From Anaerolineae bacterium (GTDB lineage: Bacteria > Chloroflexota > Anaerolineae > Aggregatilineales > Phototrophicaceae), in assembly GCA_022822545.1 (NCBI GenBank), contig JAJEBE010000049.1:1-64000 (forward strand): DNA of 64,000 nucleotides. The letters are read 5' to 3'. The notes under the pieces were generated by a model that did no database searches, had not been told where the DNA came from, and saw nothing but the letters and a program-made list of their open reading frames with translations. Shown here piece after piece: positions 24,040 to 41,247 of the stretch. Made by a program: the position numbers and the translations under genes. Positions within the stretch are counted from its first letter, which is position 1, and every line of letters begins with the position of its first letter.

Positions 24040-24402
24040 ATGTCGACCATCCTGGAATTCGGTCCCGTCGCCGCGCTGCTCGTCATAGCATCGATTCTCG
24101 CGCTTATCATCGCCAACATCTCGCGAGTGATGGGTCCGCAGCGGCCGAGCTATCGCAAGTCGGTGCCCTACGAGAGCGGCATGAAGCCGATCGGCCCGGC
24201 GACGCGCCGTTTGCCGGTCAAGTTCTACCTGGTCGCCGTACTGTTCATCATCTTTGATATTGAGGTTATTTTCTTTTTGCCGTGGGCGGTATCCATGCGT
24301 GACCTGGGTGTTTATGGTTTGGCGGTCATGGCGGTCTTCACGGTGATTCTGATCGTAGGCTTCGTCTACGAGTGGAAGAAAGGTGGTTTGGAATGGGAGT
24401 AA
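24040..24402 (+). CDS. nuoA: NADH-quinone oxidoreductase subunit A
   Basis: 120 aa; [41 protein letters not shown]. Confidence 0.95.
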
Positions 24403-24875
24403 GCTCAAAGCTGGGCAATTTAGGTGTCGTGACCACCACCTTGGAACAGGCCGTGAATTGGGGCCGAACCGGCGCGATGTGGCCGCTGCTATTCGGTTTG
24501 GCCTGCTGCGCTATTGAATACATGAGTTCGCAGGCCTCGAGTTACGATCTTTCGCGTTTCGGCATGGAGTTGAACCGGGCGACGCCGCGTCAAGCGGATC
24601 TGCTGATTGTATCGGGTCGCTTGACGCGCAAAATGGCGCCGGTTGTGCGGCAGCTTTACGATCAAATGGCGGAACCGAAATGGGTTATTTCGATGGGCGA
24701 TTGCGCTTCTTGCGGCGGCGTTTACAACAACTATGCGATTGTGCAAGGCGTTGACGAGATCGTCCCGGTCGATGTGTATATCGCCGGTTGTCCGCCGCGC
24801 CCGGAGCAATTGTTGCACGGCATCTTGACGCTGCACGAAAAGGTCAAGAGCGAACGCATCGCCGATTGGGCCTAA
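24393..24875 (+). CDS. nuoB: NADH-quinone oxidoreductase subunit B
   Basis: [87 protein letters not shown]…[15 protein letters not shown]; start at 24393 overlaps nuoA. Confidence 0.97.
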
Positions 24876-24918
24876 GATTGGACTGACCGAGAAGAGGGGC
24901 AACGAGGGAAGCGGGAGT

Positions 24919-25479
24919 ATGGAAATACCGGCGGCGCGCAACCCGGTTGATGTATTACGTGAATCCTTCGGGGAGGCGATTCTCTTCGTCAAGGAATTCC
25001 GCGGCGAAACAACCGTTGTTGTCGAGGCGGCTCGCTCATCTGATGTCCTGGATTTCCTGCGCGTCAGCTTCGGGCTTGTCTACAATATGCTCTCGGATGT
25101 GAGCGCGGTTGATTATTATCCTGACGATTACGGTGAGGGTTTTGACAGCGATTATCGGCCGGAGCGCTTTGCGGTCTCTTATCACCTTCTGTCTATGCTT
25201 TACAATCGCCGTTTGCGGGTGAAGGTTTTCGCGGAGGAAGAAGATCCGCGGCTGCCTACGGCGACGGTGGTCTTTCCGGCGGCGAATTGGCTCGAGCGTG
25301 AAATCGCGGATATGATGGGAATCGTCTTTGAAGGGCACGCCGATCAACGCCGGCTCTTGATGCCGGACAATTGGTACGGTCACCCGCATCGGCGTGATTA
25401 TCCGCTGGGCAAAGAAACGGTCGCCTTTTCCTTCAACGAGGCGGAAATCCGCAAGCACAAGCCCTTCGCCACAGATTAG
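24919..25479 (+). CDS. nuoC: NADH-quinone oxidoreductase subunit C
   Basis: 186 aa; SAVDYYP…RFAVSYHLLSM, WLEREIADMMGIVFEGHADQRRLLMPDNWYGHPHRRDYPLG. Confidence 0.94.
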   Translation: MEIPAARNPVDVLRESFGEAILFVKEFRGETTVVVEAARSSDVLDFLRVSFGLVYNMLSDVSAVDYYPDDYGEGFDSDYRPERFAVSYHLLSMLYNRRLRVKVFAEEEDPRLPTATVVFPAANWLEREIADMMGIVFEGHADQRRLLMPDNWYGHPHRRDYPLGKETVAFSFNEAEIRKHKPFATD

Positions 25480-25493
25480 ATTTCGGGGTCGAT

Positions 25494-26762
25494 ATGGCAG
25501 TCGCATCACCACCGCAATCCATAGAAGAGCAGCGTCGCTGGGAGGGCAGCCTCGATCAGTTGCGCGGGTTGGTATCCGAACGCGCGATCACCGGCGAGAC
25601 GATGCTGCTCAACATGGGCCCGCATCACCCGAGTACGCACGGTGTGCTTCGCCTGCTGCTGGAGTTGGATGGTGAACAGATTGTTTCCTGCTTGCCCGAT
25701 ATCGGCTTCCTTCATACTGGCATCGAGAAATCTATTGAGGACAAGAGTTACGAAAAGGCGCTGCCGCTGACGGACCGCATGGATTACCTGTCGCCGATGT
25801 CGAACAATATGGCCTATGCGGCGGCGGTGGAAAAGCTGCTTGATCTGGATGTGCCGGAGCGCGGTCAGATAATTCGCGTCGTCTGCCTTGAGCTGGCCCG
25901 CTGCGCCAGTCACCTGGTCTGGCTGGGCACGCACGCCATTGACATGGGCGCGATGAGCGTCTTGCTTTACGCCTTCCGTGAGCGTGAACGCATCCTCGGC
26001 ATGTTCGAGATGCTCTCGGGCCAGCGTATGATGAGCAGCTATATCCGTCCAGGCGGAGTCTGGCGTGATGTGCCGGATGACTTCTTGCCGACGATCAAAC
26101 AATTCTTGAATGACTTCCCGGCCAAAGTCGACGATTACGAGGCCTTGCTGACGCAGAATCCGATTTGGAAAGACCGGGCGCAAGGCGTCGGCGTCATTGA
26201 GCCGGATGTGGCTCTCGCTTATGGTTTGACCGGACCGGCCTTGCGGGGCAGCGGCGTCAACTGGGATCTACGTAAAGCGCAGCCTTATTCGGGCTATGAG
26301 ACATACGACTTCAATGTGCCGCTGGGCGAACATGGCGATGTTTATGATCGTTACTTGATTCGCATTCACGAATTCCGCGAAAGCATGAAGATCCTGAATC
26401 AAGCGGTGGCGCGGTTGGAGCAGGTCAAGGGACCCTACCGTTCAGAGAATCGAAAATATTGCCCGCCCTTGCGCAGCGAGTTGGGGCAGAGCATGGAGGC
26501 GGTGATCCACCACTTCAAGCTTTGGACTTACGGTTATGACGCGCCCGATGACGAAATCTATAACGCCATCGAAAGCCCGCGCGGCGAAATCGGCTGTTAC
26601 ATTCACGGCACCGGCGGGAACAAACCAAGGCGGGTTCATTTCAAAACTCCGTCCTTCATTCACATCAGCGCTCTGCCGGTGATGGCGAAAGGATATTTGC
26701 TGGCCGATATGGTGGCGATAATCGGCAGCGTTGATATTGTTTTGGGCGATTGCGATAGATAA
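25494..26762 (+). CDS. nuoD: NADH-quinone oxidoreductase subunit D
   Basis: 422 aa; MLLNMGPHHPSTHGVLRLLLELDGEQ, SFIHISALPVMAKGYLLADMVAIIGSVDIVLGDCDR. Confidence 0.97.
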   Translation: MAVASPPQSIEEQRRWEGSLDQLRGLVSERAITGETMLLNMGPHHPSTHGVLRLLLELDGEQIVSCLPDIGFLHTGIEKSIEDKSYEKALPLTDRMDYLSPMSNNMAYAAAVEKLLDLDVPERGQIIRVVCLELARCASHLVWLGTHAIDMGAMSVLLYAFRERERILGMFEMLSGQRMMSSYIRPGGVWRDVPDDFLPTIKQFLNDFPAKVDDYEALLTQNPIWKDRAQGVGVIEPDVALAYGLTGPALRGSGVNWDLRKAQPYSGYETYDFNVPLGEHGDVYDRYLIRIHEFRESMKILNQAVARLEQVKGPYRSENRKYCPPLRSELGQSMEAVIHHFKLWTYGYDAPDDEIYNAIESPRGEIGCYIHGTGGNKPRRVHFKTPSFIHISALPVMAKGYLLADMVAIIGSVDIVLGDCDR

Positions 26763-26805
26763 GCATTAAGCGGATGCTGGCGGTTCAGGTCTTGGGCTTA
26801 AGGCT

Positions 26806-26832
26806 GGATTCCCGCTGAAGAGCAGGGAATCC
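26806..26832 (+). other. Intercistronic hairpin between nuoD and nuoE
   Basis: GGATTCCC-gctgaagagca-GGGAATCC, perfect 8-bp stem, no T-tract; within the nuo operon. Confidence 0.5.
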
Positions 26833-26853
26833 GTTTATGAGGGAACGTATCGA

Positions 26854-27360
26854 ATGGCGATAATCGGCAATCCGAAATACGAAGCGCGCATTGATCATCA
26901 CCTGGCGAAGTATGAAACGAAACGCTCGGCGGTCATGCCCCTGCTGTATATCGCGCAGGAAGAATACGGTTGGGTGAATCCCGAAGGCATTGAAGAAGTC
27001 GCGCAGATCCTTAATCTGGATCCGACGCAAGTTAAGTCGATCGCCGGTTTTTATACCATGTATTCGGAGAGGCCGAAGGGCGAGTACTGGTTGCAAGTCT
27101 GCACCGATTTGCCTTGCGCTCTCAAAGGCGCGGATGACTTTCATGCCTGGCTTAAAGAGGAGTTGGGAGTGGAAGAAGGCGGGACGAGCGCGGACGGCAT
27201 GTTCACCGTGGAGCATGTGATGTGCCTGGCCGCTTGTGACAAAGCGCCGATGCTGCAATGCAACTTCCATTATGTTGAGAATCTCGATCAAAACAAGATG
27301 CGCGACTTGCTGGCGAAATGGCGCCAGGAGGCGGCGGGCGCCTCAAACGGGCATCGTTAA
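26854..27360 (+). CDS. nuoE: NADH-quinone oxidoreductase subunit E
   Basis: 168 aa; EEYGWVNPEGIEEVAQILNLDPTQVKSIAGFYTMYSERPKGEYWLQVCTDLPC, CLAACDKAPMLQCN. Confidence 0.95.
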   Translation: MAIIGNPKYEARIDHHLAKYETKRSAVMPLLYIAQEEYGWVNPEGIEEVAQILNLDPTQVKSIAGFYTMYSERPKGEYWLQVCTDLPCALKGADDFHAWLKEELGVEEGGTSADGMFTVEHVMCLAACDKAPMLQCNFHYVENLDQNKMRDLLAKWRQEAAGASNGHR

Positions 27361-27407
27361 TAGGGCATTGCGCCGCTTGGACGAGAGTTACGGAACTGAA
27401 GGGGATT

Positions 27408-28664
27408 ATGCACATTCTCTTGCGCGGACGCGAAATTGCGAATATCAAGCAGCTTGACGTATACGAGGCGCATGGTGGCTTCGCCGGCTTAAAAGTGTCG
27501 CTTGCGATGAAGCCGGCCGAGGTCATTGATGTCGTCAAGGCCTCCGGCTTGCGAGGGCGTGGCGGCGCGGGCTTCCCCACAGGAGTGAAGTGGAGCTTTA
27601 TACCGCAGCACGAGCCGATCAAATATGTCACCGTCAACGCGGACGAGAGCGAGACCGGCACCTTCAAAGACCGCGAAATCATGGAGGAGAATCCTTATCA
27701 GCTCATCGAGGGTTCTCTGATCTGCGCCTACGCGATTCAGGCGAAGGCGGTTTACATTTATTTGCGCGGCGAATTCTGGGATATTGGCGACCAACTGGAT
27801 GCCTGCATCGAAGCCCTGCGCGAAAAAGGTTATGTCGGCAAGAATATCATGGGCTCGGGCTACGATTGCGAGGTGTACACGCATCTTGGCGCTGGCGCTT
27901 ATATCTGCGGCGAAGAGAGCGCGCTCCTCAACAGCCTGGAAGGCTACCTGGGTCAGCCGCGCGTGCGACCGCCTTTTCCGGCGCAGAAGGGTGGCGGTTT
28001 GTACAAGGAAGCGACCGTTGTCAACAATGTCGAGACTTTGGCCAATGTGCCATTCATTCTTACGGAAGGCGCTGAGGTTTTCAAGGCGATCGGCACCGAG
28101 CAGAGCGCCGGCAACAAGGTCTACTGTGTCAGCGGTCACGTGAAGAAACCGGGCAATTATGAGTTGCCAATGAATACCACATTTCGCGAGTTGCTATACG
28201 AACACGCCGGCGGCCCCTTGCACGAAGACCGCGCTTTCAAGGCGATGTTGCCCTCCGGCGGGTCGGGGCCTATCGTGCCCTTGACCGATGAAGTGCTGGA
28301 TACGCCGATGAGCTATGAAGACGCCGAGAAGATCGGGACGATCATCGGCTCGGCTTCGATCATCATTATGGACGAGACAGTGGATATGACCTGGGTCGCG
28401 TCCAAAGTGACCAAGTTCTTCAAGCACGAAAGCTGCGGCAAATGTACGCCCTGCCGCGAGGGCACCTATTGGCTGGACAAAGTGATAGACCGCATTTTGG
28501 ACGGACGGGGCTCGCCGGATGATGTCAAACGCATCGCTGATGTGGCGGAGAATATGGCTGGCACGACGCTCTGTGCCCTGGGCGACTTTGCCGCCAACCC
28601 GATCATCCATACGATTCGTCATTTTCCCGACGATTTTGCGCAGCATGTGCAGGCGCAGGGCTGA
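27408..28664 (+). CDS. nuoF: NADH-quinone oxidoreductase subunit F
   Basis: SGLRGRGGAGFPTGVKWSFIP, NADESETGTFKDREIMEENPYQLIEG, ESCGKCTPCREGTYWLDKV. ATG at 27408 preferred. Confidence 0.97.
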   Translation: MHILLRGREIANIKQLDVYEAHGGFAGLKVSLAMKPAEVIDVVKASGLRGRGGAGFPTGVKWSFIPQHEPIKYVTVNADESETGTFKDREIMEENPYQLIEGSLICAYAIQAKAVYIYLRGEFWDIGDQLDACIEALREKGYVGKNIMGSGYDCEVYTHLGAGAYICGEESALLNSLEGYLGQPRVRPPFPAQKGGGLYKEATVVNNVETLANVPFILTEGAEVFKAIGTEQSAGNKVYCVSGHVKKPGNYELPMNTTFRELLYEHAGGPLHEDRAFKAMLPSGGSGPIVPLTDEVLDTPMSYEDAEKIGTIIGSASIIIMDETVDMTWVASKVTKFFKHESCGKCTPCREGTYWLDKVIDRILDGRGSPDDVKRIADVAENMAGTTLCALGDFAANPIIHTIRHFPDDFAQHVQAQG

Positions 28665-28667
28665 GGC

Positions 28668-29009
28668 ATGGAAGACGTGACTGCACACGGAAGCGCAAAC
28701 CGATCTGGCTTTTTGAGTCGAGTGGTTCGATCCGTCTTCCGGCCGAGTTTGGAGCGCGAGCGCGAATTTTATCGTCGGCTCCGCGACCTAAGCGCGACCA
28801 TTGACGAAGCGCCCGACTCGATTACGCATGTGGTTTTGCGCGGCGAGCTTTATCTGGAGCGGGGCGAGTACCAGCGGGCGAAAGTGGACTTTGAGCGGGC
28901 GCTTGCTCTGGCGGAGAAACTCGACGCTGCCAAGGGCTGGCTCATCGTAGAACAAGTGATGCGCGACCGCGCGCTACAGGGCTTGAAAGTGGTGGAGCGG
29001 CGCCTCTGA
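28668..29009 (+). CDS. Small TPR-like protein encoded between nuoF and nuoG
   Basis: 113 aa, starts 4 bp after nuoF stop; SITHVVLRGELYLERGEYQRAKVDFERALALAEKLDAAKGWLIVEQV resembles a TPR pair. Confidence 0.7.
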   Translation: MEDVTAHGSANRSGFLSRVVRSVFRPSLEREREFYRRLRDLSATIDEAPDSITHVVLRGELYLERGEYQRAKVDFERALALAEKLDAAKGWLIVEQVMRDRALQGLKVVERRL

Positions 29010-29050
29010 CTTATGCGCCGAGTAGCCGAGATGGTGATGTGGAGGCATGA

Positions 29051-31585
29051 ATGTCCGATACGGTGAAGATCAACATCGATGGGACAGATTATGAAGTAGC
29101 GGCCGGATCGAATCTGGTGGATGCCGCGAAGTGGCACGCCGGCAACGACATTCCGGTCTTCTGCTATCATCCCAAGATGGACCCGGTGGGCATGTGCCGG
29201 ATGTGCCTAGTGGAATTGGGCACACCGGCGAGAGATCGCGCCACGGGCGATATTGTGCTCAATGACGACGGGTCGCCACAAATCCGCTACTTCCCCAAAT
29301 TGCAGACGGCTTGCACCACCACTGTCAGCGACGGCATGCATATCAAAACGAATACGCAGCAAGTGATTGACGCGCGTAACGATGTGCTGGAGTTCCTGCT
29401 CAGCAGCCACCCGCTGGACTGCCCCATCTGCGACAAGGGCGGCGAGTGCCCGTTGCAGAACTTGACGATGCGGCATGGTCCGCAAGCATCAAGAATGTAT
29501 TTTGAAGACAAGCAATTATTGGAGAAACATTATCCGCTTGGCGACCTCATCTTTCTGGACCAAGAGCGCTGCATTCAATGCGCGCGCTGCGTTCGCTTTC
29601 AAGATGAAATTGTGGGAGATGATGTGCTGGCTTTCCATGAACGTGGGCGGCGTCTGCAAATCATTACCAATTCCGACCCCGGTTTCGATACCTATTTCAG
29701 TGGCAACACGACTGATATTTGTCCGGTCGGCGCATTGACCACGGCCGACTTCCGCTTTGGCGCCCGGCCCTGGGAATTGACCGACGTGCCGAGCATCTCG
29801 CCTTGGGATGCGGCCGGCGAGAATATCACCCTCAGCATGCGCTTGGATCGTGACTTTGGCGGCAAGGCGCTTATCAAGCGGGTGATGCCGCGACAGAATG
29901 AACTGGTCAACGAAATCTGGATCAGCGACAAGACCCGCTTCGGGCACCATTTCACGCGTAGCGACGATCGGCTGGTTACGGCGCAGATCAGGACAGGCGA
30001 TGCTCTGCGTGAGTCGAATTGGGATAGCGCTGTTTCTGAGATTGCCCAGATCTTGCGAGATGCGGGCGGCGATGTGGCCGCGATCGCCGGCAGCGGCATG
30101 TCGAACGAAGACTTGTGGGAATTGCGGCGACTGATGGAAGGGCTCGGCAGTTCCCGGTTGGGGGCTTGGCCCCCGACGCATGGCGGCGCGGAAGCGGTTG
30201 CTGAAGTCGGCGTGGGCTTTGGTACGAACCTGGGTCAGTTGGGCAAAGGCGATGCCATATTGGTAATCGCCTGCGACCTGGAGGAAGAAGTGCCGATTTG
30301 GCGCTTGCGCTTGAAACAGGCGCAGGATCGTGGCGCCTACCTGGTCGTCGCCAACGCGCGTGATACGCGGCTGGAAGACTTCGCCGTGCAAGGCGCGCGC
30401 AATGACAGAGTCGTGGAAGGCGATGCGGTTCGCTACGGCGCCGGTGAAGCCGTCGGCGTCATGCGTGACCTCAAGAAGTCGCACAAGAAAATCGCCGAGC
30501 GTTTGAGCAAGGCGGAGAACCTTGTGATCGTTGCCGGCGCCGAGGGGCTGACGCTGGCTGGCAGCCGCGCGCTGGCACAGGCCGCCCGCAACTTTTTGGC
30601 CGAAAGCGGTCACGCTGGGACACGGAATAGCGGTCTGCTCTCGCCGCTGCCGGGCGCAAATGGCATGGGGCTGCACTATCTGGGCTTCAGGCCCGATGCC
30701 AGCCTGGATATCGCGGCCAGCCCGCCGAAGGTGCTGCTTGTGGCGCAGGCCGAGTTGTTTGATGACGATCCGGCCGCGCGCGCCTGGCTCAGCCAGGTTG
30801 AAACCGTGATTTACGCCAATTTCTTTGATGACGGCATCTCGGAGTTTGCCGATTTTGTTTTGCCGCTCCAGACCTTCGCCGAGCGCGATGGCAGCTTTGT
30901 CAACGGCGAACGGCGGGTACAGCGCTTCACCCTGGCGCAAGGTCCGGTAGGGCAAGCGCTGCCGGCCTGGAAGCTCTTCGGCAGCATCCGCCAAGAAATG
31001 GGCATGAGCCATCTCAAACCATCGGCGGCGGCGGTGATGCTGGAAATCAGCAAGAATGTCAGCGTTTTCGAGGGGATGCGTTACAAGGCGCTGGCGCAAG
31101 TCAAGCGGCAGTTCCCCGATGTCGGCGGTCGCGACCAGTATTACGGCGGCACCGCTTACACGAACACCGGCGGCGTCGGCATTCAAATCCCGGCGATTGC
31201 TGACGATGACAAGAAGCTCAAGCCGGTTGACCTGGCCGAGAGTGACGATGTGGTCGCTGCCGACGGCGAGGTGTTGATCATGCCGATCATGCGACTTTAC
31301 AATCGGCAGCGCAATTTTCGCCCGTCCCTGTTGCTGGAGCCGCGGATCCTGGCGCCTTACGCCATCATTCATCCGGCTGACGCGCAGGCCCTCGGCATCA
31401 TTCAGGGCGATGTCATCGACATTTCAGCCGGCGATTCGATCATACGCGCGCGGGCGTCGGTGAGTGACGAGATAGCCGCTGGCGTCGTAGCGCTGCCGCG
31501 ACATATGACGGACGCGGCTGCCCCCATGTCAATATGCAGCGGAGCAATTAGCCGGGTCGCGCAAGCGGTCGCTTCGGCGGACTGA
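29051..31585 (+). CDS. nuoG: NADH-quinone oxidoreductase subunit G
   Basis: 844 aa; HPKMDPVGMCRMCLVELGTPA, SSHPLDCPICDKGGECPLQNLTMRHGP, QERCIQCARCVRFQDEIVGDDVLAFHERG, GNTTDICPVGALTTADFRFGARPWEL. Confidence 0.95.
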   Translation: MSDTVKINIDGTDYEVAAGSNLVDAAKWHAGNDIPVFCYHPKMDPVGMCRMCLVELGTPARDRATGDIVLNDDGSPQIRYFPKLQTACTTTVSDGMHIKTNTQQVIDARNDVLEFLLSSHPLDCPICDKGGECPLQNLTMRHGPQASRMYFEDKQLLEKHYPLGDLIFLDQERCIQCARCVRFQDEIVGDDVLAFHERGRRLQIITNSDPGFDTYFSGNTTDICPVGALTTADFRFGARPWELTDVPSISPWDAAGENITLSMRLDRDFGGKALIKRVMPRQNELVNEIWISDKTRFGHHFTRSDDRLVTAQIRTGDALRESNWDSAVSEIAQILRDAGGDVAAIAGSGMSNEDLWELRRLMEGLGSSRLGAWPPTHGGAEAVAEVGVGFGTNLGQLGKGDAILVIACDLEEEVPIWRLRLKQAQDRGAYLVVANARDTRLEDFAVQGARNDRVVEGDAVRYGAGEAVGVMRDLKKSHKKIAERLSKAENLVIVAGAEGLTLAGSRALAQAARNFLAESGHAGTRNSGLLSPLPGANGMGLHYLGFRPDASLDIAASPPKVLLVAQAELFDDDPAARAWLSQVETVIYANFFDDGISEFADFVLPLQTFAERDGSFVNGERRVQRFTLAQGPVGQALPAWKLFGSIRQEMGMSHLKPSAAAVMLEISKNVSVFEGMRYKALAQVKRQFPDVGGRDQYYGGTAYTNTGGVGIQIPAIADDDKKLKPVDLAESDDVVAADGEVLIMPIMRLYNRQRNFRPSLLLEPRILAPYAIIHPADAQALGIIQGDVIDISAGDSIIRARASVSDEIAAGVVALPRHMTDAAAPMSICSGAISRVAQAVASAD

Positions 31586-31603
31586 TAATAGAGGAAGACA
31601 GGT

Positions 31604-33172
31604 ATGAGCCGTAATCTGAAAATCGGCATTGGCGTAGTCGCAGTCGCTCTGTTCGGCCTCGTCGTCGTTGTAGCGCTGGTTCTCGCCAATCTCGGCGCGA
31701 TCGCGACCTGGATCGGCTTTGATGACGCCGGCAACCTGGATGGGCGCCAAGGCGCGATCGGCATGCTGCTGAACCCGGAACCGCGCGTGCAGAATGTGAT
31801 TCAATGCGAAGACGACGCTGGCTGCTCGGCGCTCTGGCCAATCATATTTGCCGCTGGTTTCGCCTTTGTCATCGTCACCGGCTTCGCTTATACCACCTTG
31901 CTGGAACGGCGCTTGCTGGCATTCTTGCAGCATCGCGTTGGTCCGAATCGCGTTGGTCCGCTGGGTTTCATGCAGCCGGCGGCTGACGGCCTCAAGCTCG
32001 TTTTCAAAGAGGACTTGATGCCGGCCGGCGCGGACAAGTGGGTTTTCCGCCTGGCGCCCATGATCAAGGTGGTTCCGATTTTGATGATCGCCGCGGTTAT
32101 ACCGATGGGGCCTGATCTGGTGATACCCTGGTTTGCGCCGTCGCTCGGCGATGTCTGGTATCAGGTGCCGCAGGGTTTGGTCGATTCCAATGTGGGCATC
32201 CTTTGGGTGATCGCGATTACCAGCATCGCGACCTATGGCGTGGTATTGGCGGGCTGGTCCAGCGACAACAAGTACGCCATGTTGGGCGCGCTGCGGGCAT
32301 CAGCCCAGATGATTAGCTACGAGCTCAGCATGGGCTTGACACTGGCCGTGCCCGTCATGATCGTGGGCAGTATGGCCATCGGCGATATCATCGACGCGCA
32401 GCGCAACATCTGGGATTGGTTCGTTTTCCAGAATCCACTGGCGGCGGCGGTCTTGATTCTAGCGCTCTTGGCGGAAACCAACCGCGCGCCCTTTGATTTG
32501 ACCGAAGCCGAGCAAGAATTGACTCAAGGTTATATGACCGAATACAGCGGCATGAAATTCGCCCTGTTTATGATGGCGGAATACCTAGGCATGATCGCTG
32601 TTAGCTTGGTGGCGGCGGCGGTATTCTTCGGCGGCTACCACCTCTGGCCGATGGATGGCTTGCCAGTATTGGCGCCGGTCATTTTCATTGGCAAGGTCTT
32701 CCTCATGTTATGCGGCATGATCTGGATTCGGGCGACTCTGCCGCGCATCCGCTATGACCGCTTGATGCAGTTCGGCTGGAAAGTCATGATTCCGCTAGCG
32801 CTGCTGGCGGTCGCCTGGACGGCTGTTTCGATAGTCGTGGGCGATGCCATGGGCGGCGATGCCTATCCCGTTATCTCCGGCGCAGTATTCGTGATAGTGC
32901 TGGTCATCGGCGGTTTGGCGCTGCGCCGTATGAGCCGCGACCAAGACATTGAAGAAGCGATCCCGCTGGAAGACGACCCGGCCTATACTGGCGAGCGGCG
33001 CGGCCTGGGCTGGGCGCTGGTGCATCTGGTCGGCATGTTAATCGCGATTCCGCTGGTTCAAATCCGCTTTCTGGTAAGATCGCTGGAAGGAATGGCGAGC
33101 TTCGGGCGCACGCCGGAAGAAGATCGCTTGCTTGAAAGTGGCGAGACAGCGCTCAAACGAGCGGGCGATTGA
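31604..33172 (+). CDS. nuoH: NADH-quinone oxidoreductase subunit H with N- and C-terminal extensions
   Basis: 522 aa; LERRLLAFLQHRVGPNRVGPLGFMQPAADGLKLVFKEDLMP, AETNRAPFDLTEAEQELTQGYMTEYSGMKFALFMMAEYL, WIRATLPRIRYDRLMQFGWKVMIP. Confidence 0.95.
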   Translation: MSRNLKIGIGVVAVALFGLVVVVALVLANLGAIATWIGFDDAGNLDGRQGAIGMLLNPEPRVQNVIQCEDDAGCSALWPIIFAAGFAFVIVTGFAYTTLLERRLLAFLQHRVGPNRVGPLGFMQPAADGLKLVFKEDLMPAGADKWVFRLAPMIKVVPILMIAAVIPMGPDLVIPWFAPSLGDVWYQVPQGLVDSNVGILWVIAITSIATYGVVLAGWSSDNKYAMLGALRASAQMISYELSMGLTLAVPVMIVGSMAIGDIIDAQRNIWDWFVFQNPLAAAVLILALLAETNRAPFDLTEAEQELTQGYMTEYSGMKFALFMMAEYLGMIAVSLVAAAVFFGGYHLWPMDGLPVLAPVIFIGKVFLMLCGMIWIRATLPRIRYDRLMQFGWKVMIPLALLAVAWTAVSIVVGDAMGGDAYPVISGAVFVIVLVIGGLALRRMSRDQDIEEAIPLEDDPAYTGERRGLGWALVHLVGMLIAIPLVQIRFLVRSLEGMASFGRTPEEDRLLESGETALKRAGD

Positions 33173-33224
33173 CGGGCCTTCGTAGATTTCTGACCGAGAA
33201 CATTGAACCGAGGGGTTGCACAGG

Positions 33225-33719
33225 ATGAATGTAGTTAAGGGTTTTGCCACAACCTTAAAGCACTTGATGGATGATGCGGTTACCGTGCAGTATCCGGAAC
33301 AGGTGCAGAAATTTCACGATCGTTACAAGGGGCGGCACCATTTGCGCCGTTACGAAAACGGCCTGGAAAAGTGCATCGGCTGTTCGCTCTGCGCGGCCGC
33401 TTGCCCGGCCGACGCCATTTGGGTGGAAGCGGCGGAAAACACCGATGACGAGCGTTACAGCCCGGGCGAACGCTATGCCAAGACCTACGAGATCAACATG
33501 CTCCGCTGCATCTTCTGCGGCTACTGCGAAGACGCCTGCCCGACCGAAGCGATCCAGCTCGGTCATGAACACCAGATGTCCTTTACAGACCGGCGCGATG
33601 CGATCTATGTCAAAGACATGTTGATTGACCCGCCGCTGGAAGATGCGCCGGGTACGCCTCAGGCGGTAAAGCCGGGAAGCTTCGATCGGTCGATACCCGA
33701 TATGGAAGATCCGTCCTAG
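33225..33719 (+). CDS. nuoI: NADH-quinone oxidoreductase subunit I
   Basis: Two 4Fe-4S motifs CIGCSLCAAACPADAI and CIFCGYCEDACPTEAI; ATG at 33225. Confidence 0.96.
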   Translation: MNVVKGFATTLKHLMDDAVTVQYPEQVQKFHDRYKGRHHLRRYENGLEKCIGCSLCAAACPADAIWVEAAENTDDERYSPGERYAKTYEINMLRCIFCGYCEDACPTEAIQLGHEHQMSFTDRRDAIYVKDMLIDPPLEDAPGTPQAVKPGSFDRSIPDMEDPS

Positions 33720-33816
33720 CGACGCCAAATCGGTCGTGATTCAAGTTTTGTAAATTGAAGAGCGACGCCATTTGTGCTAAAGTGCGCAATCGCATTTATC
33801 TTGGGAATTAGCTCGT

Positions 33817-35205
33817 ATGGAATGGTTGTTTCTGGTCGTGAGTTTTGTGGCGGTCCTGGCGGCTGGCATGATGCTGACGCGGCAAAACGCAGTACATAGC
33901 GCTCTATTTCTCATTGTCAATTTTGGCTGCGTGGCCTTCCTCTATTTGATGCTGGATGCGCCCTTCCTGGCCATGGTGCAGGTGACAGTGTACACCGGCG
34001 CCATCATGGTTCTTTTCTTGTTCGTCATTATGCTGCTCGGCGCAGAGGCGACCACCGATACCTCCGGGCGCATGCGTTGGCTGGGTTTCGCCGGCACCGC
34101 TGTCGCCATCATACTCTTGTTGATCTTTGCCTTTCCCCTCGCGTCAGATATGCTGACCGACGAGATTGTCGAGCCGCCTGAGACCAGCGCGCGACTGCGC
34201 GTCATCAACGCGATACCGGGTGGCGATAGCGAGTCCGTCACAATCATGGACATGGGAAGGTCCATTACCTTGGAAGGCATCGTCACAGGCAGCGTTCTGT
34301 TCGACGGGACTGACGATGCTTTGGATGACTTGCGCATTGATGATGTCGTATATGATTATGGGCGTGACGCGACTCAACACTATACTGTATTGCCGGCCGG
34401 CGAATATAACGTGATTGCCGGAGTTGAACTCGCCGGATTCGCCACAAGCCCATTGCTGATAGAAGCCGTAACCTTGACTGCTGATTCCGCGCATTCTGTG
34501 GTTTTCTACGAAAATGTTGAGGGCATCGTTGATGTTGTGCTGATGGAAGATGATGTCAGCGCGCCCGCTGTGGGAAAGATGCGGCTTACGGTCTTCAATG
34601 CGGTGACAGATAAGCAGGTTTCGCTAATTGACATCGGTCAATACACGACGCGAGGCAGCCTGTGTGAAGACGATTCCTGCAGTTCGCTGATTCCCCATCG
34701 GGTCTTGATTGAAGAATTGCCGGCCGGCCAGCAGACCAGCCTTGAGCTGGAAGAAGGGTCGTACAACCTGGCTTTCGTCGATCAGGATCAGGCGGTATTG
34801 CGGACGCTTGCCGATTATGGCGCCGAACGCGGAATCATCGAAACGCGCGTCTTCGTGCGGGAACCGGGTGTCCCGGGCAGCGAGCCAAGTTATCGCGCCG
34901 CGGTCTTCAATGCCATCGCGATCCCGGCTTTCGGCAGTCCGGAGGCTGTGGGGCAGGTCCTGTTCATTGAGTATGTGCTGCCGGTGATGCTGGTTGGCAT
35001 GCTGCTTTTGGTAGCGTTGATCGGCGTCATCGTCCTGGCGCGGCCGGACGCCCTGGCGCAAGCCGAACGCCGTCGGATCAATCGGCGCCGGCGTGTCAAC
35101 CGCCCGCTGGTCAGCGTGATTTCGCAGCAGACCGGCTCGGATGTATTAAGCGGCGACTATATGGCGAAGTTGACCGGCGGCTCAGATGACAGCGCTGACG
35201 ACTAG
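33817..35205 (+). CDS. nuoJ: NADH-quinone oxidoreductase subunit J with large extracytoplasmic insertion
   Basis: 462 aa; NuoJ core NAVHSALFLIVNFGCVAFLYLMLDAPFLAMVQVTVYTGAIMVLFLFVIMLLG and LFIEYVLPVMLVGMLLLVALIGVIVLARPD, separated by about 260 hydrophilic residues. Confidence 0.93.
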   Translation: MEWLFLVVSFVAVLAAGMMLTRQNAVHSALFLIVNFGCVAFLYLMLDAPFLAMVQVTVYTGAIMVLFLFVIMLLGAEATTDTSGRMRWLGFAGTAVAIILLLIFAFPLASDMLTDEIVEPPETSARLRVINAIPGGDSESVTIMDMGRSITLEGIVTGSVLFDGTDDALDDLRIDDVVYDYGRDATQHYTVLPAGEYNVIAGVELAGFATSPLLIEAVTLTADSAHSVVFYENVEGIVDVVLMEDDVSAPAVGKMRLTVFNAVTDKQVSLIDIGQYTTRGSLCEDDSCSSLIPHRVLIEELPAGQQTSLELEEGSYNLAFVDQDQAVLRTLADYGAERGIIETRVFVREPGVPGSEPSYRAAVFNAIAIPAFGSPEAVGQVLFIEYVLPVMLVGMLLLVALIGVIVLARPDALAQAERRRINRRRRVNRPLVSVISQQTGSDVLSGDYMAKLTGGSDDSADD

Positions 35206-35224
35206 CTGCGGAAGAGGGTAGGCG

Positions 35225-35533
35225 ATGAACCCAATCGGCACCGAGCCCTACATCGTACTCAGCATGGTGCTTTTCCTGATGGGGGCGCTGGGCGTCCTCA
35301 TGCGGCGCAATGCCATCCTGCTCTTCATGTCGGTTGAGTTGATGCTGAATTCGGCGAACCTGGCGCTGGTGGCCTTCGCCCGCGAATGGGGCCAGGTCAA
35401 TGGGCACGTCTTCGTGTTCTTTGTGATGACGGTGGCGGCGGCTGAAGTCGCTATCGGTTTAGCTTTGATCGTAAATATTTTCCGCGAACGCCAAAGCATC
35501 AATATTGACGAATTGCGCCAGATGCAAGGCTAG
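35225..35533 (+). CDS. nuoK: NADH-quinone oxidoreductase subunit K
   Basis: 102 aa; [37 protein letters not shown]. Confidence 0.96.
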
Positions 35534-35563
35534 CGGACCGCCGTCGAAAGAGGCGCTAACGGT

Positions 35564-38077
35564 ATGGAAAATCTTCCACTCATGGTTCCCTTGGTGATAT
35601 TCGTTCCGGCGCTCGGGGCGATTATCAACTTCTTCTTTGGCGCGCGTCTTGGGGAGAAGTGGTCAGGCTATATCGGCTGCTTCGCATCCATTTTTGCCTT
35701 CATTGTTTCGCTATTTCTTCTGTCTTGGGTGACCGGCACCAACGGCAGCGCGGCCGTGGTCAACCCGCCATTCTTTGATGGCTGGCTGCGCATCGAATCG
35801 ATCGGCCTGGACATTTCCTGGCAGATGCGGGTGGATTCGCTCAGCGTGACGATGATGCTGGTCGTCACCGGCGTCGGCTCCCTAATTCATATGTACGCCC
35901 GCGGTTATATGCATGGCGACAAGTGGTATCCGCGTTTCTTCGCCTATTTGAATATGTTCCTCGCCTTCATGTTGATCCTGGTGACGGCGAACAACTTCCT
36001 CATGCTATTTGTCGGCTGGGAGGGGGTTGGGCTTTGCTCCTTCCTGTTAATCGGCTTCTGGTGGGATAAGAAAGCGCCGGAAGGCTGGAAGAACAGCAAC
36101 GCGGCGCGCAAGGCATTCATCGTCAATCGCATCGGCGACTTCGGCCTGCTGATGGCGATGTTCTTGATCTTCTGGACCTTTCGAACGCTCGACTTCGTCA
36201 AGGCGGGCGAACTGCCTAATACAGAACCGAAGTATCTGGTGCATTGGCGCGAGCACAATGGCTTGCTGGCGCACGAGAGCGATACGGACCACAGCGAGGA
36301 AACGGACGCCGCTGGCGAAGACGACTATGCCGATGGGGGGCACGGCGCGCAATATGAGTGTGTGCCCGCGGATGCCCAGTCCCACGGAGATGACCACGCC
36401 GACGACGAGCACAGCGGCGACTATGGCGAGTCGAACCCCCTTGCGAAGGATATCCGCGCTCTCTACTGCGACAATCACCGCTTTGATACCGATCTTCTCG
36501 GCGTCTTCGGGCAGACCACCGAGCGCTTCGGCAATGGCGAGGTCGTGGACTTCGGCGGCTTCCAGATTGCCTTCGAGGATGTGATCTTCTTGATTGCGCT
36601 GTTCATGCTGCTTGGGGTGACCGGCAAGTCGGCGCAGATCCCGCTCTTTATCTGGCTGCCGGACGCGATGGCGGGCCCCACGCCGGTCAGCGCCTTGATT
36701 CACGCCGCCACGATGGTCACGGCTGGCGTCTATCTCATGGTGCGGTCGAATGTATTTTTGTGGGAACTCAACCACGCCGGTTATGTGCTGGGCTTGATTA
36801 TCACCCTGGTCGGCGCGGGAACGGCGCTGGTCGCTGGTTTCATCGCGCTGGGGCAATGGGACATCAAGCGCGTGCTGGCCTATTCGACGATATCGCAGCT
36901 TGGCTTTATGGTGGCGGCGGTAGGCATCGGCGCTCACGTCGCCGCGATGTTCCACCTGGTCACGCACGCCGTGTTCAAAGCCCTGCTCTTCCTCGGCAGC
37001 GGCTCCGTCATCCACGGCGTTGAGCATGGGCATCATCACGCGCACGATCACGGACACGGCGATGACCACGGCGGTCATCACGAGGACTTCGACCCGCAAG
37101 ATATGCGGAATATGGGTGGCCTGCGTAAGCGCATGCCAATCACTTATCTCACATATCTGGTTGGAACATTGGGCTTGGCGGGGATCTTCCCCTTCGCCGG
37201 CTTCTGGTCGAAGGACGAGATTTTGGCCGATGCCTGGTTCGAAGGCTTTGAGCTGAACGAAACCAGCGGATTCATCGCCTTCGGTGTGCTGTTGGTCGCG
37301 GCTGCCTTCACCGCCTTCTACATGTGGCGGCAGGTAGTGCTGGTCTTCTTTGACGACGCCCGCAGCGAAGCGGCTGAACGCGCGCCGGAAAGCAGCGGCG
37401 CCATGCTGCTGCCCCTGGTTATTCTGGCGATATTCACTTGCGTCATCGGCTTGATTAATGTGCCAAAAGCGACGCCAATATTTGACGGAATCTACCATCC
37501 CTACGAATTCAAGCACTTCCTCGAGCACAGCCTGGTCAGCGTCTCCCGCGGCCACACGCTGGACTTCAATCTGCTGATCGCCGGCATTGCCCTGGCTTTA
37601 GGCATCGTCTCGATTGTCATCGCCCACCGCGTCTACAAAGGCAAGGGCCTGGCGAGCGGCAACCGCGATCAATTGGAGACCAGCGCGCCCTCAAGCGGTC
37701 TCTTCAAGCTGGCGAACGCACGCCTGTATTGGGACGAATTCTACGCCGCTCTCATCGAGAAACCCTTTAATCGGCTGGCCGATTTCCTGGCTGACCGCGT
37801 GGATTGGGAGTTCCTGCACGATTACTTCCACGATCGGATCATCAAGCGAGGCTTCGATACGATCGGAGATATTCTCAGCAAGCCTATCGACCTAGGCATC
37901 GTTGATGGCGCGGTCAATGGCGTCGGCCTTTTCGTGCAGCGCGCGGCCAATTGGATGCGCCGTTCGCAGACCGGCTATGTACGCCTTTACGCGGTCGTGC
38001 TCTTCATCGGGGTTGTCGTTGTGATCTTGGTCATGCTCATACCATTTATTCAGGCTCTGCTCCAAAGTGGCGCTTAA
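35564..38077 (+). CDS. nuoL: NADH-quinone oxidoreductase subunit L with acidic/His-rich insertions
   Basis: 837 aa; GWEGVGLCSFLLIGFWW, LLGVTGKSAQIPLFIWLPDAMAGPTPVSALIHAATMVTAGVYLMVR, FPFAGFWSKDEIL. Confidence 0.96.
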   Translation: MENLPLMVPLVIFVPALGAIINFFFGARLGEKWSGYIGCFASIFAFIVSLFLLSWVTGTNGSAAVVNPPFFDGWLRIESIGLDISWQMRVDSLSVTMMLVVTGVGSLIHMYARGYMHGDKWYPRFFAYLNMFLAFMLILVTANNFLMLFVGWEGVGLCSFLLIGFWWDKKAPEGWKNSNAARKAFIVNRIGDFGLLMAMFLIFWTFRTLDFVKAGELPNTEPKYLVHWREHNGLLAHESDTDHSEETDAAGEDDYADGGHGAQYECVPADAQSHGDDHADDEHSGDYGESNPLAKDIRALYCDNHRFDTDLLGVFGQTTERFGNGEVVDFGGFQIAFEDVIFLIALFMLLGVTGKSAQIPLFIWLPDAMAGPTPVSALIHAATMVTAGVYLMVRSNVFLWELNHAGYVLGLIITLVGAGTALVAGFIALGQWDIKRVLAYSTISQLGFMVAAVGIGAHVAAMFHLVTHAVFKALLFLGSGSVIHGVEHGHHHAHDHGHGDDHGGHHEDFDPQDMRNMGGLRKRMPITYLTYLVGTLGLAGIFPFAGFWSKDEILADAWFEGFELNETSGFIAFGVLLVAAAFTAFYMWRQVVLVFFDDARSEAAERAPESSGAMLLPLVILAIFTCVIGLINVPKATPIFDGIYHPYEFKHFLEHSLVSVSRGHTLDFNLLIAGIALALGIVSIVIAHRVYKGKGLASGNRDQLETSAPSSGLFKLANARLYWDEFYAALIEKPFNRLADFLADRVDWEFLHDYFHDRIIKRGFDTIGDILSKPIDLGIVDGAVNGVGLFVQRAANWMRRSQTGYVRLYAVVLFIGVVVVILVMLIPFIQALLQSGA

Positions 38078-38092
38078 GGAGAACGCGTTCCC

Positions 38093-39700
38093 ATGGACGT
38101 AACTGGACTTTCGCTTACTACCATCACCCTGTTCCTGCCTTTGATCGGGCTCGCCATTTTGGTCTTCATGAATGGCGAAACGCAGAAGAGCAACCTGAAA
38201 TGGGTGGCTTTTGTCACGAGTTTGGTGACCTTTGTCGCATCAGTGGTGATGTGGATTAACTTTGACCCGAGCACGGCCGAGTTGCAAATGGTGCAGCGCA
38301 ATACCTGGGCCGAAGTCTCCCTGGGCGAGTCCGTCATCAACGTCAGCTACTTCGTCGGCGTCGATGGCATCAGTATGCTGCTTGTCCTCTTGACCACCTT
38401 CATCATGCCGATCGCAATTCTCGGCTCCTTCGGCAGCAACATCTTTGAAGAGCGCGGACGCGAAAAACTCTACTACATCTTCCTCATGCTGCTCGAGTGG
38501 TCGATGATCGGCGTCTTCGTCGTGCACGATCTCATCATCTTCTACGTCTTCTGGGAAGTGACCCTGGTGCCGATGTACTTCCTCATCGGTATCTGGGGCG
38601 CGGAAGAGCGCATCTACGCCGCCGTCAAGTTCTTCCTCTACACCATGGCCGGCTCGATCCTGATGCTGATCGCGATACTTTATGTCGGCAATCGCTCCGG
38701 CACCTTCAGCACCTACAGCGCCGGCGGCGATGTCGGCGTGATCGAAAAGGTGCAGAACTTCGATGGCGAGGGCACCTATTGGGATGCCCTCGGCCCGGAT
38801 GGCGAGGGCGAAGACGCCGGCTTCCTGCTGGACTCGGTGGAGAGCTTCCTCTTCCTCGGCTTCCTGGTGGCCTTCGCGATCAAAGTGCCGATCTTCCCCT
38901 TCCATAGCTGGCTGCCGGATGCGCATGTGCAAGCTCCGACTGCCGGCTCGGTGATCCTGGCTGGCGTGTTGCTGAAGATGGGCACCTACGGCATCGTCCG
39001 CTTCAATTTGAACTTATTCCCCGAAGCGACGGTAGCATGGGCGCCGACCATCGCCTTCCTCGGCGTGGTCGGAATCATCTATGGCGCTTGGGTCAGCTAC
39101 GCTCAAAACAACGTCAAGAAGCTGGTCGCCTATTCATCGGTCAGCCACCTTGGTTTCGTCGTGCTGGGCATTTTCGCGCTGAACTCGCAAGGCTTGCAGG
39201 GCGCGACCTTGCAAATGGTCAACCACGGCATCAGCACAGGCGGCCTCTTCTTGATCGTCGGCATGCTTTACGAACGCTGGCATACTAAGGAGATGGCGGA
39301 TTACGGCGGTATCTGGAAGGTTATGCCACTCTTCGGCGCGATAAGTCTGGTCATCTCCTTGAGCAGCATGGGTTTGCCCGGTCTCAATGGCTTCATCGGC
39401 GAATTCACGATCTTGCTCGGCTCGCTGGGCAGCGATTATCTCGGCTTCGCCTTCACCCTCTTCGGCACGCTCGGCGTCATCCTGGCGGCGGTCTACCTGC
39501 TGAAGATGTTCCAGCATGTCTTCATGGGCGAGTTCAAGAAACCGCTGGCGGATGAAGCCGGTTACAAACTGACCTGGTATGAGAAAGCGGCTTATATCCC
39601 GATCATCATCATGATCTTCTGGATGGGCTTGCAGCCGATTGTATTCTTCAACTTGCTGGATGTTTCGGTGGATAGCATCGTCGCTATGTTCGTTGGCTAG
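38093..39700 (+). CDS. nuoM: NADH-quinone oxidoreductase subunit M
   Basis: 535 aa; FFLYTMAGSILMLIAILY, AFAIKVPIFPFHSWLPDAHVQAPTAGSVILAGVLLKMGTYG. Confidence 0.96.
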   Translation: MDVTGLSLTTITLFLPLIGLAILVFMNGETQKSNLKWVAFVTSLVTFVASVVMWINFDPSTAELQMVQRNTWAEVSLGESVINVSYFVGVDGISMLLVLLTTFIMPIAILGSFGSNIFEERGREKLYYIFLMLLEWSMIGVFVVHDLIIFYVFWEVTLVPMYFLIGIWGAEERIYAAVKFFLYTMAGSILMLIAILYVGNRSGTFSTYSAGGDVGVIEKVQNFDGEGTYWDALGPDGEGEDAGFLLDSVESFLFLGFLVAFAIKVPIFPFHSWLPDAHVQAPTAGSVILAGVLLKMGTYGIVRFNLNLFPEATVAWAPTIAFLGVVGIIYGAWVSYAQNNVKKLVAYSSVSHLGFVVLGIFALNSQGLQGATLQMVNHGISTGGLFLIVGMLYERWHTKEMADYGGIWKVMPLFGAISLVISLSSMGLPGLNGFIGEFTILLGSLGSDYLGFAFTLFGTLGVILAAVYLLKMFQHVFMGEFKKPLADEAGYKLTWYEKAAYIPIIIMIFWMGLQPIVFFNLLDVSVDSIVAMFVG

Positions 39701-39708
39701 GAGAGAGC

Positions 39709-41247
39709 ATGTTTGAGTCGCCGTCTATTGCGGAATTTCTGGCGGATTCCAACCTGGCATCCACATTGCCCGGCACACTCTTGCTGGCCTGGACTCTGCT
39801 GCTGGTGATCGTTGATCTTTTCACCGACGAGGAACGCCAGCACTGGACACCGATTCTGGCTTGTGTCGGCCTGGGCCTCAGCTTCCTAGCCAATATCGCC
39901 GTCTATTCGCTGGCGGAGGGCGAGCAAGTGGCTCTTTACGGCATGTTCATTGCCGATGCATTCACCGGCTTTTTGAACTTCGTGATATTGGTCGCCACGC
40001 TGATCGCGGTTCTGATGAGCTGGGATTACCTCAAGCGCGCCGGTATCCATCGTGGCGAATACTATATCCTCGCGCTTATCTCCTCAGCCGGCGCCATGTT
40101 CATGGTCGGCGCAAACGACTTGATCACCGTCTTTGTCGCGCTCGAATTGCTGAGCATTCCGCTATACATCCTCGCCGCCTTTCGTTCCATAAAGAACGAC
40201 GGCAGTGATCTGGCGCTCAAGTCCGAAGAAAGCGGCATGAAGTATTTCATCTTGGGCGCATTTTCCAGCGCCTTTCTGGTTTTCGGCGCGGCCCTGGTTT
40301 ATGGCGCGACCGGCACGACCAATCTCCCGCAGATATTTGACATCGCCGGCGGCATCGTCGGCGAGACATCAAGCGGGACATTCTATCTGTTGGTGGGTGC
40401 CGCGCTGCTGATCGTCGGGCTGGGCTTTAAGGTGGCGGTCGTGCCCTTCCACATGTGGACGCCTGATGTCTACGAAGGCGCGCCGACACCAGTGACCGCC
40501 TTCATGAGCGTGACGGCAAAGATCGGCGGGTTTGCGGCGCTGCTGCGCGTCCTTATCACGGGGCTGTCCGTGCTGGTATTGGCCGAGGGCGATGCGGTGG
40601 CTTGGCAGGCGACCGCCACGATCATCGCAATCCTCACGCTCGTCCTGGGCAATTTCGTGGCGATCTCGCAGCGGAATCTCAAACGTATGCTGGCTTATTC
40701 CTCCATCGCCCACGCCGGCTACATCATGGTATCGGTTGCGGCGGCTGGCAGCGCGAACGTCATTGACGCGGCCACACAGGGAGCCTTGGTCTACATGCTC
40801 GCCTACATGTTCACTAATCTGGGCGCCTTCGCTGTCGTCATGACGATTGAGCGTGAAGATGGCAGCGGCGGCAATATTGATGATATCAACGGCCTGGCGC
40901 AGTCTCGGCCGCTTCTGGCGATGGCCATGACGATCTTCATGCTCAGCCTGACCGGCGTACCCCTAACCGCCGGTTTTGTTGGCAAATTCATGATTTTCTC
41001 CGCCGCCCTTCAAGCGGGCTTGTTTGGCCTGGCCGTCATTGGCGTACTCACAAGCGTCGTCAGCGCCTTCTACTATATTCGCGTGGTCGTCAATATGTAC
41101 CTGCGCGATAGCGAAGGCGAGTTGCAGCCGCCGCTTGATACACAGTACCTGCGCTGGGCTATCAATATCGCGCTGGCTGGCACTCTGGTTTTTGGCATCT
41201 TCTACCCCTTGGCGACCAACCTGGTCAGTATGGTGAGCATCGCTTGA
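39709..41247 (+). CDS. nuoN: NADH-quinone oxidoreductase subunit N
   Basis: 512 aa; LELLSIPLYILAAF, SEESGMKYFILGAFSSAFLVFG, VPFHMWTPDVYEGAPTPVTAFMS. Confidence 0.96.
   Translation: MFESPSIAEFLADSNLASTLPGTLLLAWTLLLVIVDLFTDEERQHWTPILACVGLGLSFLANIAVYSLAEGEQVALYGMFIADAFTGFLNFVILVATLIAVLMSWDYLKRAGIHRGEYYILALISSAGAMFMVGANDLITVFVALELLSIPLYILAAFRSIKNDGSDLALKSEESGMKYFILGAFSSAFLVFGAALVYGATGTTNLPQIFDIAGGIVGETSSGTFYLLVGAALLIVGLGFKVAVVPFHMWTPDVYEGAPTPVTAFMSVTAKIGGFAALLRVLITGLSVLVLAEGDAVAWQATATIIAILTLVLGNFVAISQRNLKRMLAYSSIAHAGYIMVSVAAAGSANVIDAATQGALVYMLAYMFTNLGAFAVVMTIEREDGSGGNIDDINGLAQSRPLLAMAMTIFMLSLTGVPLTAGFVGKFMIFSAALQAGLFGLAVIGVLTSVVSAFYYIRVVVNMYLRDSEGELQPPLDTQYLRWAINIALAGTLVFGIFYPLATNLVSMVSIA

Follow-up and report, generated by a model that had tools for sequence, protein, structure and literature searches.

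A tandem DUF4397-like module within the TM4–TM5 loop of NuoJ, a core subunit of complex I, in one order of Anaerolineae

Complex I has 14 core subunits, which are regarded as almost invariant. In the window (the whole 64,000-nt stretch of Anaerolineae DNA analyzed here), the nuoJ gene encodes a protein far longer than the 184 aa of Escherichia coli NuoJ or the 145 to 252 aa of the solved NuoJ relatives that we found. What are the additional residues, on which side of the membrane do they lie, and what might they do for the enzyme?

Results

As judged from ORFs, Pfam, and tblastn, the long ORF follows nuoI and precedes nuoK in a nuo operon that has all 14 genes (Table 1). Oxidored_q3 (PF00499) matches two stretches of the 462-aa ORF, split around an insert (E 4.2e-37; 127.5 bits versus a cut-off of 33.2), and alignment with E. 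coli NuoJ shows that Y59 and G61 of the TM3 motif are kept. A low-confidence AlphaFold model has five helices, at residues 2 to 18, 25 to 45, 51 to 78, 88 to 113, and 375 to 408.

Table 1 Features of the nuoJ locus, in window coordinates
Feature	Positions	Strand	Evidence
nuoA-B-C-D-E-F-(TPR-like ORF)-G-H-I-J-K-L-M-N operon, complete	24040..41247	+	ORFs; Pfam (A, H, J, K, L); tblastn matches of each gene in relatives
nuoJ, 462 aa	33817..35205	+	ORF and Pfam
NuoJ core TM1–TM4, residues 1–115, TM3 gate region Y59/G61 conserved	33817..34161	+	PF00499 residues 16–112; E. coli NuoJ alignment
Insert, ~residues 116–371, in TM4–TM5 loop	34162..34929	+	Alignment with E. coli NuoJ and insert-less relatives
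Half a (~116–250), DUF4397; Pfam match 34366–34611	34162..34566	+	Pfam
Half b (251–371), diverged DUF4397-like copy, more constrained	34567..34929	+	hhalign to half a; weak Pfam match in L030; dN/dS
Cys283 and Cys288, invariant in 19 genus members	34663..34680	+	Genus alignment
FGSP motif and TM5, residues 372–411	34930..35049	+	Alignment
NuoJ C-terminal tail, conserved arginine run, expected cytoplasmic	35050..35202	+	Genus alignment, charge pattern

By alignment, the insert comprises approximately 255 residues, running from the end of TM4 to the FGSP motif at the start of TM5. The same loop of insert-less relatives is about 20 to 45 aa long, and the net gain of an insert carrier is about 235 aa. 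Pfam and alignment thus agree with the earlier note, made from the sequence alone, that a large hydrophilic insert lies in frame between TM4 and TM5. Its placement at 34138 to 34947 is right in location and a few residues too wide on each side, and its size of ~260 aa is right in being large, the net gain falling a little under that figure.

Searched with the whole protein, Pfam places DUF4397 (PF14344) between the two PF00499 stretches, at residues 184 to 265 (E 6.8e-10; 40.0 bits versus a cut-off of 30.6). Half a scores 25.8 bits once excised, under the cut-off, because the domain is then cut short; half a of a family-f3 relative (L030) reaches 65.3 bits, and DUF4397 was matched in all eight diverse insert-bearing NuoJ proteins tested. 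Half b of the window gave no Pfam match, placing it outside DUF4397 by profile, and half b of L030 matches weakly, below the cut-off (E 0.0023; 18.9 bits). Profile–profile comparison by hhalign relates half b to half a (Prob 89%, E 2.2e-6), and since its kinship comes from this comparison, we call half b DUF4397-like only. The two similar halves read by the earlier note are therefore borne out; its assignment of both to DUF4397 stands for half a, above the Pfam cut-off, and is replaced for half b by relatedness to half a. Within half b, C283, C288, and Y/R/G positions are invariant across the genus, and Cys283 and Cys288 may form a disulfide.

A full-length NuoJ model was computed with AlphaFold from a shallow alignment of 19 related sequences of the genus. 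The insert is predicted to be all-beta, with block-mean pLDDT of 73 to 91 over residues 121 to 340 and dips to ~62 near 181 to 190 and 271 to 280. Confidence in the placed membrane helices is low, as can be expected when the alignment is shallow and nearly invariant. Compared with the PDB by Foldseek, the model matches the extracellular domain of PepT2 best (E 7.2e-10; target-length TM-score 0.58–0.70) and that of PepT1 next. Folding the insert alone returned the same top hits (E 1.1e-6), but half b was then modeled with poor confidence, and we therefore rely on the full-length model. These Ig-like matches and the all-beta model support the beta-sandwich predicted in the earlier note. A PDB sequence search with the insert gave nothing below E 0.98, and sequence kinship to the PepT-type Ig-like pair was not found.

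A review of complex I structures describes NuoJ/ND6 with five TM helices and with the TM3–4 loop between the peripheral and membrane arms (PMC10212512); the TM4–5 loop should therefore face outward. With 15 K+R versus 42 D+E, the insert is acidic, and the tail after TM5 carries a conserved arginine run, both of which fit outer placement of the insert. The window's genome and others in the phylum also encode stand-alone DUF4397 proteins in which signal peptides were recognized by eye. From the published topology, the charge pattern, and these DUF4397 relatives, we infer that the insert of this organism is on the outer face of the membrane, as had been proposed from general NuoJ topology.

Exported forms of the domain were seen at two other loci. 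One (L142:2149–4788, − strand) encodes an exported-looking protein of ~840 to 880 aa with at least two DUF4397 domains. The other (L146; G742:C12, family f128) encodes a stand-alone tandem DUF4397 protein with a signal peptide and an LPXTG-like C-terminus, the module in wall-anchored form. The genome that holds L142 also has a second cluster resembling that of complex I, ordered A-H-J-K-L-M-M-N and so including two nuoM genes (L141:7567–17238, G000 contig C23); tblastn found neither nuoB–G nor nuoI alongside it, and its NuoJ is an ordinary 174 aa.

Across the window's order (class Anaerolineae), the insert is present in about 132 of 151 genomes, a count that includes nuoJ genes split over contigs. 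Carriers comprise all 34 members of the window's genus, 56 of the remaining 61 genomes in that genus's family (f1), 17/18 of f3, 5/5 of f4, 10/11 of f7, and 10/10 of f8, or about 132 of the 139 genomes of these five families. Among the seven that lack it, one (G363, family f3) has a clean short NuoJ, and no main nuoJ was recovered from the other six. The 12 genomes of families f2, f5, and f6 have a short NuoJ or none. Insert-bearing NuoJ was absent from 277 further genomes of the class and 361 of the rest of the phylum (~638, some lacking any NuoJ match), and scores drop outside the order from 269 bits over the full length to at most 145 over the N-terminal core. Long open frames in G573, G077, G051, and G079 were rejected as extended NuoJ, being ordinary NuoJ read into an upstream frame. 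One member of the window's genus (L045) is bin20 (MPMG) of a study of the sponge Aplysina aerophoba (PMC5649159).

On a tree of nine other Nuo subunits, the insert state changes twice, and none of 500 shuffles gave a number as low. The best reading is that the insert was gained once, in the ancestor of f1+f3+f4+f7+f8, and lost once, in G363. The homologue search and phylogenetic mapping that the earlier note suggested thus yield, within Chloroflexota, an ancestral trait of most of the order, not a peculiarity of the window's genome.

Between members of the genus, dN/dS is ~0.16 (0.09–0.21) for the insert and ~0.02 (0–0.08) for the NuoJ N-terminal core; several pairs have dS >1 and are less reliable, and those with dS <0.7 agree. 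Half b (0.05–0.16) is more constrained than half a (0.13–0.25). The insert is under purifying selection, kept as a protein but with weaker constraint than the core. Folding requirements would account for some of this selection, and may account for all of it.

The rest of the operon was surveyed for features that track the insert, and no partner gene doing so was found within the nuo operon of the compared genomes. NuoH has an N-terminal extension (window 31604–31900) in which an additional hydrophobic segment and a Cys-x6-Cys pair precede TM1. This pair is common to the carrier families, to insert-less f5/f6, and to the loss genome G363, and is not found in f2; its occurrence in f5/f6 and G363 makes it older than the insert, and we rejected it as a co-gained partner feature. 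NuoL (837 aa, window 35564–38077) has acidic and His-rich loops (HDHGHGDDHGGHHED and others) that are possibly metal-binding. A long NuoL also occurs in the absence of the insert, and so its length is not specific to carriers and was likewise rejected as co-gained. Between nuoF and nuoG lies a small TPR-like ORF (113 aa, window 28668–29009) whose TPR matches are below Pfam cut-offs; it has the same operon position, or one nearby, in most examined genomes of the order.

The TM4–TM5 loop of NuoJ has received other additions. Family f125 (L135, L136) carries an unrelated insert of ~100 aa, with a marginal Pfam match to the CheA P2 domain (23.5 bits versus 23.0), and family f66 (L137) an unrelated one of ~70 aa. 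These inserts indicate that the loop is a site where an otherwise rigid enzyme tolerates additions. A search of open-access literature gave no description of a DUF4397-bearing NuoJ, an absence that is not proof, and none of the three papers found there to mention DUF4397 has complex I in its title or abstract; the architecture, which the earlier note thought undescribed, appears so in that literature.

Discussion

The gene would encode the predicted working NuoJ of a 14-subunit, NADH-dependent complex I. We put at about 0.95 the probability of this architecture, a tandem domain pair within NuoJ. The common ancestor of the five carrier families acquired, once and in frame, an Ig-like tandem of DUF4397 domains such as secreted Chloroflexota proteins contain, inserted into the extracytoplasmic TM4–TM5 loop and kept since. 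The insertion left the five-helix core and the TM3 gate unchanged, and the module is predicted to project outward from the membrane arm at the H-A-J-K region. The insert is no part of the pump, since relatives lack it and the gate residues of TM3 are unaltered; and because the sister families and G363 do without it, any role is not essential to the enzyme.

We hypothesize, at slightly better than even odds, that the insert functions in docking or bracing, as a noncatalytic platform. A division of labor between the halves is also hypothesized: half b, which is more constrained, adjoins TM5, and has the possible disulfide, would seat on the outer face of complex I, and the acidic, faster-evolving half a would face a partner, either another respiratory complex or an envelope component. 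Taken to its most specific form, a docking domain built into a core proton-channel subunit would direct formation of a specific supercomplex or an envelope tether, as an integral equivalent of the accessory proteins that mitochondrial complex I carries on its outer face. This form of the proposal, whose supercomplex and envelope options the earlier note had raised, is tentative, and the odds are against it.

The main rival is an internal brace that has no outside partner. The module would clamp the outer ends of TM4 and TM5 together with loops of NuoH, NuoA, and NuoK, stabilizing the E-channel region or blocking a relocation of TM4 like that which distinguishes the deactive mammalian enzyme (PMC10212512). 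Such a clamp fits an insert tethered at both ends, to TM4 and TM5, whose more constrained half adjoins TM5 and is modeled with better confidence in the full-length protein than alone. Both halves of a brace should be constrained, yet half a evolves fast, and to our knowledge deactive states of the mammalian, TM4-relocating kind have not been established for bacterial complex I; we regard the partner-free brace as unlikely. We think it less probable still that a permissive outer loop tolerates the insert as a passenger, a folded domain with no selected task other than to avoid misfolding. Unrelated inserts in the same loop of f125 and f66, the loss in G363, and evolution several times faster than that of the core all suit a passenger, but it has been retained in about 132 of 139 carrier-family genomes, the remainder mostly lacking a recovered main nuoJ, and half b contains the genus-invariant cysteines and Y/R/G positions.

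Nothing beyond the unusual length of this NuoJ speaks for an artifact, whether an assembly chimera of nuoJ with a DUF4397 gene, which the earlier note had named as a possible refutation, or the misreading of a cytoplasmic loop as an external one. About 132 assemblies, from many genera, share these junctions, and in one genome (G368) the insert-bearing nuoJ sits on a single 5.63-Mb contig; this recurrence rules out both chance and the chimera; the published topology and the charge pattern argue against a cytoplasmic loop. Together, these artifacts are extremely improbable.

A two-domain outer module gained once and kept through most of an order would mean that the core of complex I can evolve new outer surfaces, here on a subunit that sits at the proton-channel junction. 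The insert-less families f2, f5, and f6 and the loss genome G363 are natural controls. For annotators, the long NuoJ genes of this order are not chimeras, and DUF4397, a domain of unknown function, gains a defined place in a known machine.

The window NuoJ resembles NuoJ/Nqo10/ND6 (PF00499) in operon position, five-TM core, and the TM3 motif with Y59 and G61, and differs by the ~235 extra residues of its TM4–TM5 loop. A domain-sized insert in that loop is shared with f125 NuoJ, whose ~100-aa addition lacks DUF4397 and represents an independent event. Secreted or wall-anchored Chloroflexota DUF4397 (PF14344) proteins, such as L146, likewise have two tandem, extracytoplasmic DUF4397 domains, but as stand-alone exported proteins rather than as an insert within a polytopic enzyme subunit. 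The best fold match, the extracellular domain of mammalian PepT1 and PepT2, is a tandem Ig-like pair inserted into an outer loop of a polytopic transporter; it belongs to another protein family, and the likeness is one of architecture only. The PepT2 and PepT1 domains can be removed with no appreciable loss of transport, and they bind a partner (PMC4597091).
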